Source: a virus
Virus record (IMG/VR): IMGVR_UViG_3300042557_000981
Coordinates: 1-35,558 of that record
DNA: 35,558 bases
Reading direction: 5' to 3' (one strand)
The notes below the pieces were generated by a model. The model searched no databases. It saw only the letters and a program-made list of their open reading frames with translations, and had not been told where the DNA came from. Both the position numbers and the translations under genes were made by a program. Positions 5,371 to 32,615 of this stretch are shown piece by piece. The number at the start of each line of letters is the position of its first letter. The first letter of the stretch is position 1.

Positions 5371-5829
5371 TTATTTTAAGAATATTAGTTTATACTTAAT
5401 AGAGTTAATGGTGCTCTTTATATTGTCAAGATCATTAACTATTTCACTGTGAGGCATAACAGACTGAAGACCATCAATCTTATCTTTCATCTTTCTCAAG
5501 AAGTCCAATCCTTCTTCTACAGAGTTAAGCTCAGCAGGAGCAGTGTTAGGAAGTTCTAAAATCTTTTCTTCTGCACCTTGAAAACCCTCTACAATATCAT
5601 CAGCATGGTCTCCAAAGGCATCATAGTCCAATCCTTTGTGAGCTGCAAATGAACCAAGCCCTGTCACTTTAAGATGGAGCTTATGTAAGCTAGTTACAGC
5701 GTTTAACATATCTTGTGCCAATGCTGCTGTTTGCATACAAAGACCACATGTTTCAGATCCTCCACCCATAGAAACTGTTACTTTCATAGGGCTGGAAGAA
5801 AAAATACTAGGGCGTGTTATCTTTTGCAT
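5371..5829 (-). CDS. Dps/ferritin-like protein, 152 aa
   Basis: The segment HKLHLKVTGLGSFAAHKGLD, followed by YDAFGDHADDIVE, matches the Dps ferroxidase signature. By alignment to E. coli Dps (H51, H63, D67, D78, E82), the ligands would be H52, H64, D68, D77 and E81. The H-to-H spacing of 12 and H-to-D spacing of 4 are kept, and two residues are missing before the D77 helix turn. The rest is all-alpha, as in Dps. Known Dps proteins form 12-mers that oxidise iron and protect DNA. An N-terminal CGLC (residues 28-31) is extra. The position inside the virion module, 12 nt after the connector candidate, is odd and may mean virion association. Confidence 0.7.
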   Translation of the reverse strand: MQKITRPSIFSSSPMKVTVSMGGGSETCGLCMQTAALAQDMLNAVTSLHKLHLKVTGLGSFAAHKGLDYDAFGDHADDIVEGFQGAEEKILELPNTAPAELNSVEEGLDFLRKMKDKIDGLQSVMPHSEIVNDLDNIKSTINSIKYKLIFLK

Positions 5830-23928: not shown

Positions 23929-24410
23929 GTTGGTGCGGATAGGATGGCTATAATTCTTTAAGGTTGATAAACCTTGACAATCCTGTGGGGCTACTATGTG
24001 GTTCTTTTTAGATATTATCAGTATCTATTAAGTATCAAACACTCTGATAAAGTGTAATCACAAGTTAGTGCAGACTATAAAATCAGGAACTTTAACAATA
24101 GGCTTGAGAATCTATTGTAGTTTAATGGATATACAAATCCTGTTTAAAACTATTATCCAAATTGAAAAAATTCCATCAATTTGCAATTGCTAGAGTAGTG
24201 GAATACTCTTATTAAGGTCTATATAGTGCGCTATAGAAACCAACTGTTTGTAGAGATAGGCAATTTCTCTTTAATGCATATTGGTAACATGCATGAATAC
24301 ATTCAGTTTAATTTAAAGCAAGCCTGAGCCTAAATCAAGCCAGGAAGTAATCTACCAAAGATTGCGAGTCCTCAACAAGCTGTTAAATCAGCCAACATTC
24401 TTTTTTAGTA
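23929..24410 (+). ncRNA. Candidate large structured RNA (~470 nt), family unknown
   Basis: No convincing gene is present in this ~480-nt tract, but hairpins are dense. Ends pair as GTTGGT/GCCAAC (23929-23934 with 24391-24396). Inside lie AAGGTT/AACCTT (23960/23970), ACAATAG/CTATTGT (24095/24112), AGAGTA/TACTCT (24192/24204), TCTATA/TATAGA (24218/24232), ATGCAT/ATGCAT (24274/24289) and AATCT/AGATT (24349/24359). A T-rich end follows the closing helix, as in a terminator. The strand is inferred from this end and from its neighbours. I checked for RNase P and group I intron cores and found none that hold. A search against the large phage RNAs GOLLD and ROOL would be the first test. Confidence 0.5.
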
Positions 24411-24806: not shown

Positions 24807-25258
24807 AGGTTGGTCTCTCTCTGTAAAGGGAAGGCCAACCTCTATTCTAGGTTATTGGTAATCCTTGGAAACCATTTGGTATAGTCAGTATACACCAACA
24901 ATAAGTAATCTGACATTTATGACATCAAATTTTGATTCCCTGGAAAGGGTTGTACAGCTTGTAGGCCATTGTACGTAATTAAAAACAACCTTCTGATGAT
25001 GCTAACAGCATTAGTGCTAAACAACACTATAAACTGTTTGTTTAATGCACCACAACTCACTTCCCAAGGGTGAGCAGATGTACACACTTATAAGAGATAC
25101 AGTAACTAGATAGTAATAGGCTAGTTACCACCGTAACAGGTATCTCATTAGACAATCAGGAAGCTGAGCGTCTTAGTGTACATCTGAGTGCAGAGGGGAC
25201 AACATGAGGCAGGCTTCTTGTAGCTTCTAGACTACAGGAAGCAGCCTCATTTTTTTTC
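24807..25258 (+). ncRNA. Candidate structured RNA A, containing repeat motif and terminator
   Basis: A ~450-nt non-coding tract with ordered hairpins: AGGTTGG/CCAACCT (24807/24835), CCCT-GGAA-AGGG (24938-24949) and GTACA/TGTAC (24952/24970). It then has the repeated motif at 25008-25197 (see findings) and an 18-bp terminator hairpin at 25204-25250 followed by eight T. In the motif, GCATTA/TAATGC and CTCAC/GTGAG arms precede the block TCCCAAGGGTGAGCAG. An 11-bp helix then spans 25075-25186, closing on CTGAGTGCAGAGGG, with an inner GAGATAC/GTATCTC arm. Confidence 0.6.
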
Positions 25259-25291
25259 AAGAATAGTAGATAGCGCTGTCTCTATTCTATA

Positions 25292-25351
25292 TTAAGTAAG
25301 TCGCTAACTAGCAGATTGGTGCTCGGCCAAAAGTTCCCAAGACTTACTTAA
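25292..25351 (+). ncRNA. Small structured element closed by an 11-bp stem
   Basis: TTAAGTAAGTC (25292-25302) pairs perfectly with GACTTACTTAA (25341-25351). A TTGG/CCAA hairpin (25316/25327) lies inside. It could be a short RNA, an mRNA leader or a regulatory element. It does not fit a tRNA. A preceding AGAATAG/CTATTCT hairpin (25260/25282) lies just after the terminator. Confidence 0.45.
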
Positions 25352-25360
25352 CGAAACCAT

Positions 25361-25396
25361 ACCCAGTATTGTAAACAAGGGACTGGGTTAATTTTT
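25361..25396 (+). terminator. Terminator upstream of the 122-aa gene
   Basis: ACCCAGT (25361-25367) pairs with ACTGGGT (25382-25388), then T-rich sequence follows. It lies 58 nt before the start of the 122-aa gene, so it may act as an attenuator-like element or end the preceding RNA. Confidence 0.6.
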
Positions 25397-25402
25397 GTGT
25401 TG

Positions 25403-25439
25403 TTGGTTACTTCCATTATAACAAGTATTATGTAACCAA
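25403..25439 (+). promoter_or_regulatory. Leader hairpin before the 122-aa gene
   Basis: TTGGTTAC pairs with GTAACCAA (8 bp) 14 nt before the ATG. The downstream arm contains the AACCAA leader motif seen before several genes here. Pairing could hide that motif and limit translation, by inference only. Confidence 0.4.
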
Positions 25440-25453
25440 ATAAAAAAAACAAC

Positions 25454-25822
25454 ATGGAAAAGATCTTTAACGGCACACCACATGCCATAAATGTGGTAGA
25501 AGGTGCTACTTTTAACAGTAGCATTAGAAAGTACACAGGTGGTACTGTTGTACTAAGCATACCATCTAATGGTATGTTAAATGCCAAAATCTCTGCAGTA
25601 GACTTACCTGCAGTAGATGGTATTCCAGTGTTTGGTAAGTCCATCATTGGAGTAGATGCATTGCCTGAAGGCTTTGACATCTACATAGTGTCTGCTCTCT
25701 ATTCATCTGCTGCAAGGGCAGCAGGTATGGATATGAGTAAGATCTTCACTGTGGCTGATCCAGTGATGAATGATGATGGTACTACATTTGTAGGATGCAG
25801 AGGCATATGTCCTGCATTCTAA
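25454..25822 (+). CDS. Conserved phage protein of unknown function, 122 aa
   Basis: The sequence contains FNGTPHAINVVEGATFN, then IPSNGMLNAKISAVDLPAVD, and EGFDIYIVSALYSSAARAAGM followed by IFTVADPVMNDDGTTFVGC. The 'YIVSALYSSAARAAG...VADPV..D....GC.G..PAF' pattern resembles small conserved phage proteins I recall; no function is established. It is compact and predicted alpha/beta. It sits between two structured RNA tracts with a terminator before and after it, so it has its own transcript control. Confidence 0.7.
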   Translation: MEKIFNGTPHAINVVEGATFNSSIRKYTGGTVVLSIPSNGMLNAKISAVDLPAVDGIPVFGKSIIGVDALPEGFDIYIVSALYSSAARAAGMDMSKIFTVADPVMNDDGTTFVGCRGICPAF

Positions 25823-25918
25823 TCAGCCTGACCTAAGCATGTCATTAAACTGCTTATTTTTTCACACATTAAAATCAAAAATATGCACTGTCCTATGGGA
25901 AGGGGGTTGAGTGTGCAT

Positions 25919-25950
25919 ATAAACAAGAGCAACCCTGCTTGTTTATTTTT
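25919..25950 (+). terminator. Terminator after the 122-aa gene
   Basis: ATAAACAAG (25919-25927) pairs with CTTGTTTAT (25938-25946), followed by T residues. An alternative upstream stem TATGCAC/GTGCATA (25882/25913) and a possible ACTGTCC/GGGACAGT pairing (25888/26032) overlap it, so more than one fold is possible here. Confidence 0.75.
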
Positions 25951-25959
25951 AAAATACGC

Positions 25960-26111
25960 GCTGCCAAAGCCCTTGTAGTAGTCATCCTACTACTGGTTCT
26001 TTTCATCTGGCCAGATGATACACTATAAGAGGGACAGTACAGCTTTGCTTTGAAGACTGCATTTAGCCAGTGCAAGTGAGTGGAGAGTCATGCTCTCAAA
26101 GTCTTCTTTTT
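25960..26111 (+). ncRNA. Candidate structured RNA with terminal T-tract
   Basis: Hairpins include GTAGTAG/CTACTAC (25975/25987), and GAAGACT/AGTCTTC (26052/26100) enclosing GAGAG/CTCTC (26083/26093), followed by TTTTT. The tract ends like a terminated small RNA. It lies between the 122-aa gene and repeat copy B, and no gene is supported inside it. Confidence 0.45.
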
Positions 26112-26152
26112 AAAATATTTCCCAATGCACATATCTCACGTGGTGTAACCAC

Positions 26153-26444
26153 CTGATTAATATATCCTGCCATTTATGGTCTCATAGGATGAAAACTTTA
26201 ATCAGCTCCCAAGGGTGAGCAGTTGTAATTCTTAATTAGTATTAGCAAGTACTCAATCTATCCCTTAATCCGTAAAGCAGTGTTCCTGTAGGATGCAAGA
26301 TAGATGTTATGCTGTGCGGATTACAACTGTGTGCAGAGGGATAATTTGTGATTATTTGTAATAGTCTCCTTTAAGAAGGCTGAAAACAGAGTTTTTAGCA
26401 CTGGAGTTTGAATAGGGGATTTAACGCAGAACCAGCTATTACAA
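26153..26444 (+). ncRNA. Candidate structured RNA B, containing second copy of repeat motif
   Basis: This tract holds the second copy of the motif found in RNA A. CTGATTAA/TTAATCAG (26153/26198) and GCTC/GAGC (26205/26217) arms precede the identical block TCCCAAGGGTGAGCAG (26207-26222). A ~12-bp helix then opens, with an inner ATCTATC/GATAGAT arm (26256/26299), and closes on CTGTGTGCAGAGGG (26327-26340). A further 9-bp stem TTGTAATAG/CTATTACAA (26356/26436) follows. Unlike copy A there is no strong T-tract terminator after it; a gene starts at 26523. Confidence 0.6.
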
Positions 26445-26522
26445 GTAATTGCAAAAAAGATTAAATAGGTGAATCTTACTACCAATAAGTGTAAGAATAA
26501 TTAAAAATTTAAAATTAATCCA

Positions 26523-28394: not shown

Positions 28395-28465
28395 GCTCAC
28401 TGGTGAGCTCCTAATTAAACCATTATAGTATTAATGGTATAGTTATACAGCTCACTGGTGAGCTC
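28395..28465 (+). repeat. Two identical 16-bp palindromic repeats
   Basis: GCTCACTGGTGAGCTC occurs at 28395-28410 and 28450-28465, 55 bp apart start to start. Each has a GCTCAC/GTGAGC inverted repeat around TG. Extended pairing with CACCAG upstream of the first copy is possible. The pair lies in a 111-bp gap between two tiny genes, a layout fitting operators, a processing site or mRNA hairpins. Confidence 0.65.
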
Positions 28466-28897: not shown

Positions 28898-29947
28898 ATG
28901 CAGAATATAACTATTGTTAAAAGAGATCAGCATATACAGGATTTTCTTGATATGCAACCAAGTATAAGCAAAAATCTAAAATTTGTTAATGAAATGTCTT
29001 CTAGACAGTTTCATGAAGCAAATCTTTGTATAGATGGTGAAAAGATTTATTTTTCTTGCAGCACAATGAAAATATGCAAGGGAAGTAAAGGCGCATTCTA
29101 TATAAGGAAAACAAAAAAAGATGGCTTTACATATGAGAATAAAAAACTCAAAATATGGTTTGGTAAAAGCATATTTGAGTTGCCTTATGTCTCCAGTGTA
29201 TTTGCCCATCTTAACTGCAATTGGCTCAATTATAAACTGATGCCATATATTACCAAGACGGTTGCAGAAAAAATACTTTCAAAGAAGATTACAAATAACA
29301 TTGATCTTCTTAAAGAGTATTTAAAGTTAATGCGTATCAACGCAAGCCCTAAAATGCTTTATTGTCTTATTAACCGTAAAGACATAAACAAAATGGCTCT
29401 TCTTCGTAATTTTTCTGTAGCAAAAGATGTTAATCATGCTATAGAATATCTCCAAGGTGATGACCATCATGCAATTGATATGATAGACCAAGCATTTATT
29501 TTGCAGAGAAAAATTGATTTCTCTTGGTCTCCTAATAGAATGCGTGAAGAACATTCCAAATGGACAAAGGAAATTATGGAGGCAGAAATAAATGAAATGG
29601 ATGATAAAGAAATAGAAGGTTTGGAAAAATATGAAACATTTACACCAACTGGGTTTAAACTTTTGAAAACACAAAAAGAAGTGTTTCAAGAAGGTAAAAT
29701 CATGTCCCATTGTATTTATACGAGTTATTGGTCACGTATAAAAAATGGAAATTATCTTGCCTATCATATCTCTATTAACGGAGAAGAAGCCACTCTTGGC
29801 TTAAATATTAATTCAGATGGATCTTTACAATTTTCACAGTGTCATTCAAAATATAATGGCTCTGTATCAGAAAATATAAAATCCAAAGTTGAAGATTTTT
29901 TTAAAAAAATAGGAAATGAAAAAGAAACATGCTTTCTTCCTTATTAA
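28898..29947 (+). CDS. PcfJ-like protein, 349 aa
   Basis: The C-terminal half carries the PcfJ-type pattern: EVFQEGKIMSHCIYTSYWSR, then GNYLAYHISINGEEATLGLN, and LQFSQCHSKYNGSVSENI. Residue block MSHC...Y.....G and the ATL.L strand match PcfJ-like proteins found in conjugative elements and Bacteroidota phages. The N-terminal half is charged and unassigned (FLDMQPSISKNLKFVNEMSS). The role of PcfJ is not well established. It starts after an A-rich leader and ends overlapping a 61-aa gene by 32 nt. Confidence 0.75.
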   Translation: MQNITIVKRDQHIQDFLDMQPSISKNLKFVNEMSSRQFHEANLCIDGEKIYFSCSTMKICKGSKGAFYIRKTKKDGFTYENKKLKIWFGKSIFELPYVSSVFAHLNCNWLNYKLMPYITKTVAEKILSKKITNNIDLLKEYLKLMRINASPKMLYCLINRKDINKMALLRNFSVAKDVNHAIEYLQGDDHHAIDMIDQAFILQRKIDFSWSPNRMREEHSKWTKEIMEAEINEMDDKEIEGLEKYETFTPTGFKLLKTQKEVFQEGKIMSHCIYTSYWSRIKNGNYLAYHISINGEEATLGLNINSDGSLQFSQCHSKYNGSVSENIKSKVEDFFKKIGNEKETCFLPY

Positions 29948-31950: not shown

Positions 31951-32094
31951 ATTTTATTCCTATCTTTATGCTTGATGAGCTGTAACAGCAGTTCAAAATT
32001 GTACAAAAAACCAACCAAAAGAGAACTAAAAAAGGCTATGGAATATTCTAGTTGGGAATATATAATCCCTACGCCCAAGGGTTCTGCTTTTTAA
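31951..32094 (+). CDS. Lipoprotein-like frame without a canonical start, 47 aa
   Basis: Reading from 31951 gives ILFLSLCLMSCNSSSKLYKK, a hydrophobic stretch with lipobox LMSC, then PTKRELKKAMEYSSWEYIIP and an end at TAA. The only ATG in frame (31975) falls inside the signal. Upstream in the same frame is the TGA of the membrane gene. Possible starts are ATT at 31951 or an unknown mechanism; a sequencing error or decay is also possible. Confidence 0.35.
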   Translation: MLFLSLCLMSCNSSSKLYKKPTKRELKKAMEYSSWEYIIPTPKGSAF

Positions 32095-32100
32095 AATAAG

Positions 32101-32182
32101 TATCAGCACTTATTCCCTAATCATTTTTAAATCATTAAAAAAGAGGGGTTAAGATTGTTAACGAATTGTATAAGTGCTGATA
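32101..32182 (+). repeat. 13-bp perfect inverted repeat just upstream of the tmRNA
   Basis: TATCAGCACTTAT (32101-32113) is repeated in inverse form as ATAAGTGCTGATA (32170-32182), 56 nt apart. The right arm ends four nt before the tmRNA's first base. It could form a processing hairpin in the precursor, terminate the lipoprotein-like transcript or act as an operator for the tmRNA promoter. Confidence 0.65.
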
Positions 32183-32186
32183 TTAT

Positions 32187-32580
32187 GGGGGTGACAGGTA
32201 TTGACCTGTTAATGAAGGTGAGTGCACATGTAGACAAAGTAGGAATGTCTTTAAATACCTGCAAACAATAAACGCTAAGACACAATCTGAGCGTGTAGCA
32301 GAAGGTGAAGCAATCCTTGCTTCTATTTTTGCAGATGAGGCAGTAGCTGCCTGATCACTACGGGGGAGTTATCCCTGGCAACAGAAAATAACATACAGTG
32401 GACTTTCCTAGTTTCACACTTGATAGCCAAAACTAGGTGGTGGAGATGCTGACCAACTGGTTGGTTCCCATAGGGTGCAGATGACGGGGGATCTTTCCTC
32501 TTGATTATCAGTACTAAACATGTGATACGCTGTGCTCATTGTTCTTAACAGACACCAGGGTTCGATTCCCTGCACCTCCA
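32187..32580 (+). ncRNA. ssrA: Phage transfer-messenger RNA (tmRNA)
   Basis: The ends pair as a tRNA-like acceptor: GGGGGTG (32187-32193) with CACCTCC (32573-32579), then A. The T-arm is CAGGG-TTCGATT-CCCTG (32556-32572). A tag frame ends at TGA (32352-32354). From GCT at 32274 it reads AKTQSERV, then AEGEAILASIF and ADEAVAA, a 26-residue tag ending in the typical -AVAA degron. Other frames from the nearby GCA stop after five codons. It rescues stalled ribosomes by trans-translation; the long tag resembles those of tmRNAs in other large phages more than the short bacterial ones. CCA is not encoded. No SmpB gene is seen in the window. Confidence 0.92.
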
Positions 32581-32615
32581 CTGATCATGAGGGTTTAAAA
32601 ACCCGCGAGGTAAAC

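Follow-up and report, generated by a model that had tools for sequence, protein, structure and literature searches.

A probable twister ribozyme variant without P3, present twice in one viral sequence and common to related crAss-like phages

The window analysed here, a stretch of 35,558 nucleotides (positions 1 to 35,558 of IMG/VR virus record IMGVR_UViG_3300042557_000981), contains two similar elements, copies A and B, on the same strand around a small gene, which raises the question of what RNA they encode and what it does. The initial annotation had read them as a selected RNA structure of no known family, kept by compensatory changes. Its first shared block, TCCCAAGGGTGAGCAG, was exact at 25062-25077 and 26207-26222; with up to 3 mismatches it occurred 0.15 times per window in shuffled sequence, and no shuffle gave two. 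The second block was present as CTGAGTGCAGAGGG and CTGTGTGCAGAGGG, starting at 25184 and 26327, 106 and 104 nt beyond the first. The helix said to join the blocks was also verified, as CAGATGTACAC/GTGTACATCTG at 25075-25085/25176-25186 in copy A and CAGTTGTAATTC/GGATTACAACTG at 26220-26231/26318-26329 in copy B. The region between the blocks folded more stably than shuffles (z -3.5 for copy A and -2.6 for copy B), and the proposed inner arms, GAGATAC/GTATCTC (A) and ATCTATC/GATAGAT (B), lie within it.

Relatives were collected from IMG/VR. The first pattern (CCCAAGGGTGAGC, 95-125 nt, GTGCAGAGGG) matched exactly on 42 stretches, whose alignment revealed a longer conserved RNA, (U/C)AAUGCACCAUAACUCACUUCCCAAGGGUGAG-[hairpin CAGUUGUAAU...AUUACAACUG]-AGUGCAGAGGG. 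With widened patterns, at least 167 distinct copies were found on at least 175 contigs, the true number being larger. The covariance model R1 was built from 40 relatives and contained no copy of form B, the form with an L4 insertion to which copy B belongs; it matched copy A at 25030-25211 (88.7 bits, E 8.6e-25) and copy B at 26110-26354 (38.0 bits, E 3.1e-9). The features of both copies were listed in Table 1.

Table 1. Coordinates of the two ribozyme-like copies and adjacent elements in the window
Feature	Position	Strand	Basis
Hatchet ribozyme, associated, outside the motif	23954..24088	+	Rfam RF02678, 82.4 bits, E 8.7e-16
Copy A, form A of the twister-like ribozyme, from P1 through P1'	25038..25202	+	R1 and descriptor match
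Copy A P1 5' strand UUGUU	25038..25042	+	partner GACAA 25198-25202; sequence
Copy A UAA of L1	25043..25045	+	register as UAA of Rfam RF03160; cut predicted
Copy A P2 5' strand UGCAC	25046..25050	+	partner GUGCA 25188-25192; covariation
Copy A P4 CUCAC/GUGAG with L4 UUCCCAAGG	25056..25074	+	P4 covariation; L4 matches twister GUCCCAAGCC
Copy A P5, long branched hairpin between P4 and P2	25075..25186	+	covariation; fold against shuffles
Copy A P2 3' strand GUGCA and L1 3' strand GAGGG	25188..25197	+	sequence
Intrinsic terminator (GAGGC... stem and U run), immediately 3' of copy A	25205..25257	+	hairpin -26.7 kcal/mol, then T run
Copy B, twister-like ribozyme form B (L4 insertion)	26118..26345	+	R1
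Copy B CAA of L1	26123..26125	+	sequence; cut predicted
Copy B P4 5' strand CUCAC	26135..26139	+	partner GUGAG 26215-26219 across the insertion
Copy B P6, shortened, GUGGuguaaCCAC	26140..26152	+	only a short GUGG/CCAC hairpin left
Copy B P7 CUGAUUAA/UUAAUCAG	26153..26205	+	covariation in form B relatives
Copy B L4 core CUCCCAAGG and P4 3' strand	26206..26219	+	sequence
Copy B P5	26220..26329	+	covariance-model match; fold against shuffles
Copy B P2 3' strand and GAGGG	26331..26340	+	sequence

The pairing was evaluated on the 40-sequence alignment, in which 87.9% of cells were paired, compared with 73.1% in shuffled alignments and 26-54% with slid partners. Double-sided changes numbered 203 against 67 in shuffles, and none of 500 shuffles reached the pairing or the change figure. 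Together with the 167 or more distinct copies, these figures strongly supported a selected structured RNA present twice in the window. RNAalifold returned the same P1, P2, P4 and P5 unprompted. Among 132 form A copies, the 5-bp P4 kept its pairing in 654 of 660 cells although its two strands took 26 different sequence combinations, and P2 was seen as GCAC/GUGC, GCGU/ACGC and GUGU/ACAC. P1 had been left out of the search patterns; in these 132 copies the flanks paired in exactly the register of twister (67% of cells, 50% in shuffles, z 9.9), and shifted registers gave no such pairing. The trinucleotide (U/C)AA stood directly 5' of P2 in 31 of 40 copies from a set collected with no constraint on the 5' side. 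Since the search patterns included CCCAAGG and GAGGG, the conservation of these two is not independent evidence. The length of P5 ranged from about 34 to over 300 nt across the group, and L1 had two extra nucleotides in a few copies (L007, L020, L022 and L028).

What, then, is this RNA? The phage RNA reads P1-YAA-UGCAC-CAUAA-CUCAC-UUCCCAAGG-GUGAG-P5-A-GUGCA-GAGGG-P1', and the type P1 twister family of Rfam (RF03160) reads ccuu-UAA-cgCc-GC-P3-cCG-GUCCCAAGCC-CGg-UAAA-gGcg-GAGGG-aagg, with the same element order and conserved loops. The core consists of Y^AA, P2 (UGCAC:GUGCA), P4 (CUCAC:GUGAG), L4 UCCCAAG, GAGGG and a closing P1. In twisters, P1, P2 and P4 are essential, P0, P3 and P5 are optional, P3 occurs in 78% of annotated examples, and strongly conserved nucleotides lie in L1 and L4 (PMC5408937). 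The three essential stems were present in type-P1 order, as judged from the P1 register, the covariation of P2 and P4 and RNAalifold, and the conserved L1 and L4 nucleotides, (U)AA, GAGGG and UCCCAAG, were found on comparison with the RF03160 alignments. A descriptor made from the Rfam twister-P1 consensus had a single match in the window, copy A, where chance would give 0.03; it also matched 5 of the known twisters compared. Reciprocally, R1, a model made only from phage sequences, was applied to Lachnospiraceae DNA (27 kb), and its best matches fell on Rfam twister sites in the same register (L274:1492-1567 with E 0.016, L275, then L278 and L273), the best E being modest and one match at rank 4 not being a twister. 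These results suggested that both copies are, very probably, self-cleaving ribozymes of the twister fold with type-P1 connectivity, a variant without P3 and with a long P5, in which copy B carries a two-arm insertion in L4; cleavage is predicted at the Y-A step, and small-gene transcript processing is the likely role. The claim of no known family was not supported, since the core is that of twister, though the Rfam models miss both copies.

This miss was complete: the Rfam twister models reported none of the copies even at E<=10, and Rfam as a whole gave no family for the motif in the window either at the gathering cut-off or at E<=10. The phage RNA scores below the RF03160 gathering cut-off of 67.2 bits, which is a model cut-off and not a defining structural feature; the Lachnospiraceae twisters compared also fall below it (37-58 bits), so the cut-off is narrow. 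The miss probably stems from the lack of P3 together with the inserted P5. The Rfam twister models thereby overlook a whole group, and among open papers no report of this variant was found.

Part of the original drawing of the arms had to be revised. In copy B, GTGAG pairs with CTCAC, 75 nt upstream, and not with GCTC; the CTCAC/GTGAG pair covaries in relatives. The upstream arms of the two copies were not equivalents as had been drawn; the copy B arm, CTGATTAA/TTAATCAG, stood as a true inserted arm that covaries in relatives, whereas the copy A arm GCATTA/TAATGC would sequester the cleavage site and the P2 strand, and just 2 of 129 relatives have GCATTA at that place.

Form B has two arms, P6 and P7, inserted between the P4 5' strand and CCCAAGG, on the 5' side of L4. 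In 31 form B copies, P4 covaried across the insertion (CUCAC/GUGAG, CUCAU/AUGAG, CUAUC/GAUAG, CUACA/UGUAG), and a covarying P7 of 6-10 bp was present in 29 of the 31 as parsed. A long P6 arm, GUGG[AUAURAAG]ACUUCUUA..UAAGAUGU[GAAA]CCAC, was found in 28-29 of them, its internal loop hardly varying; many of the copies had been retrieved via the P6 string, so that P6 conservation was partly selected for. P6 or a near copy was also present in copies found without that string (L002, L006, L014, L037, L039, L042 and L133), and its outer end covaried (UCUUA/UAAGA, UCUUG/CAAGA). Judging from these letters, form B might be a natural allosteric ribozyme, the P6 loop (AUAURAAG/GAAA) sensing a ligand or a phage or host protein and toggling twister cleavage of the small-gene transcript, a proposal that we consider unlikely. 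Among ribozymes, a conserved module placed inside the catalytic loop would be an unusual feature.

Further structures were considered in the sequence around copy A. The segment 24945-25030 before it is shared with L003 (GCTTGTAGGYCATNGTRCGTAAT..AAAAACAACCTTCTGATGATGCTAA); TGTAC/GTACG appears to have changed there to TGCAC/GTGCG in a compensatory way, and the segment may be a further structured RNA. A hammerhead at 24930-25045, considered for its CUGAUGA, was rejected on reading; stem I has no room and Rfam is silent. An intrinsic terminator shared as part of the motif was likewise rejected, for although copy A is followed by one, terminators were not enriched 3' of the ribozyme among relatives.

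By analogy with twister chemistry, the RNA would fold P2, P4 and P5, after which CCC of L4 would pair with GGG of GAGGG (T1; in copy A, this GGG could pair with CCC at 25063-25065) and a C of L2 could pair with a G of L4 (T2). The T1 and T2 partners were present in the copies; their letters never vary, so the pseudoknots are beyond the reach of covariation. These contacts would position the Y-A step, which lies 5' in L1, in the active site, and the predicted cuts, between Y and A, are U25043^A25044 and C26123^A26124. After cleavage the upstream RNA would end in a 2',3'-cyclic phosphate, and the RNA that begins with the ribozyme would carry a 5'-OH.

The surroundings of these sites were compared across loci. 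Structural genes run leftward and small genes rightward from a point of divergence, and the ribozyme is situated a short way downstream of that point. Of the neighbours 2-4 kb upstream, nearly all lie on the opposite strand; genes downstream, and those up to about 1.5 kb upstream, share the strand of the ribozyme. In the window, the opposite-strand block includes matches to terminase (24-26% identical to those of Crassvirales and Flavobacterium phages), portal (31% identical to that of Leptolyngbya phage Lbo-JY46) and major head protein. The ribozyme variant is common to many related crAss-like phages. One copy only was present at 160 of 175 loci, and 22 of 24 phage records of 90-127 kb had one or two covariance-model matches at a single locus. 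At L133:9868-10288 (minus strand) two copies stand back to back, the second starting about 2 nt past the GAGGG of the first. Elsewhere the searches were negative: a 16-mer search of bacterial genomes gave at least 120 stretches, about the chance level by our own estimate, and the model confirmed none of 80 loci tested; blastn with copy A, and likewise with a relative, gave no real match among 50,697 named phage records; and the model found nothing over FPSV-S29 and Lbo-JY46 (full) or phi14:2 and cr55_1 (half).

The predicted cuts fall near the start of the rightward small-gene transcript, where a multi-gene RNA would be split and its leader removed, and because of this placement we regard such processing as the most likely, and the simplest, role. 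In the window they would separate the region of a 79-aa ORF from copy A and the terminator, and that of a 122-aa ORF from the sequence beyond. Formation of circles and control by a ligand are conceivable, but they lack support. The role of self-cleaving ribozymes in bacteria and phages is a long-standing question, and what underlies their gene associations is not yet understood (PMC10085705). One ribozyme fold at one fixed place, near the start of the small-gene block in many related crAss-like phages, with helices changing freely, makes the role testable in phage infection.

Several other elements were recorded in these genomes. A second conserved motif without an Rfam family, ACTCTCATCCAAGCAGG ... 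AAGGGTTGCAACCTTGTGAGAGT, with ends pairing as ACTCTCA/TGAGAGT, usually lies 100-300 nt upstream of the ribozyme; it occurs at about 35 of 158 loci (e.g. L028, L069 and L087) and none was seen in the window. The human gut crAss-like phage cr55_1 (L419) carries a hatchet and RAGATH-22 (29283-29382, 32071-32271) in its rightward block. The window encodes a tmRNA at 32187-32583 with an unusually long predicted tag (AKTQSERVAEGEAILASIFADEAVAA) and an exact repeat, GCTCACTGGTGAGCTC, at 28395-28410 and 28450-28465, 55 nt apart. Rfam tRNA matches of about 109 nt at L012:4783-4891, L075:3697-3805 and L087:3121-3230 correspond to tRNA genes that contain an insertion or have an extended variable arm.

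Could the fold have been retained without cleavage? A twister-derived RNA that no longer cuts might have a structural use or bind a protein, for instance as an mRNA stabiliser or a 5' cap against nucleases. Such a use would fit the next ORF starting within 60 nt of the ribozyme at 45 of 139 loci, a P5 base (CAGUUGUAAU) more conserved in sequence than pairing alone needs, and the poor P1 of copy B (2 of 5 pairs). However, the loops of the active core, YAA, UCCCAAG and GAGGG, are retained while the helices vary freely, and a scissile YAA is not expected to persist under merely structural use; we consider this reading quite unlikely. Highly improbable, in our judgement, is a new structural class such as a 5' UTR riboswitch whose likeness to twister is convergent. 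The silence of Rfam and the strongly conserved, aptamer-like internal loop of form B would suit it, but the likeness extends over P1 register, P2, L4, GAGGG and element order, the reciprocal search lands on known twisters, and form A, by far the commoner form in the searches made, has no aptamer-like domain.

A further proposal adds a function and leaves the fold as it is: a hatchet upstream and the twister downstream would release an RNA to be circularised by host RtcB. The two lie about 1.1 kb apart on the same strand in the window and with the same spacing in L001 (hatchet at 5635-5767), and 5'-OH and 2',3'-cyclic phosphate ends suit RtcB. On the other hand, Rfam placed a hatchet in only 1 of the 24 long phage records and a simple pattern found it at few other loci (L013, L051 and L059), no phage RtcB was found in the 24 records, where RNA_ligase gave one weak match below the cut-off, and the prevailing single ribozyme copy per locus also speaks against it, so that we hold circularisation to be very unlikely. 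Cleavage by a twister-fold ribozyme is the reading that we prefer.

Among known ribozymes, twister-sister has a vague general resemblance to twister, but it lacks pseudoknots and cleaves on the opposite loop strand (PMC5408937), and it had no Rfam match in the window. Hatchet (RF02678) occurs in the same phage region and shares the string GUGCAGA, which is taken to be a coincidence; a hatchet variant, suggested by this string, was rejected, as the helices and element order differ and RF02678 matches only the upstream site, with nothing in 24900-26500 at E<=10. Twister type P3 and type P5 (RF02684 being type P5) have the same fold in other circular permutations, whereas the phage RNA has its termini in P1 and not in P3 or P5, and cmscan of the window reported neither. 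Compared with twister type P1 (RF03160), the phage RNA has no P3, a very long P5 set directly on P4, and a 5-bp P2; P5 and one A replace the single-stranded UAAA before P2', L4 ends in GG and not GCC, and form B adds its two arms within L4. It agrees with type P1 in the order P1-L1-P2-P4-L4-P2'-L1'-P1', in UAA, UCCCAAG and GAGGG, in the P1 register and in the potential T1 (CCC:GGG) and T2 pairs, and a P5 is among the optional stems accepted for twister (PMC5408937).
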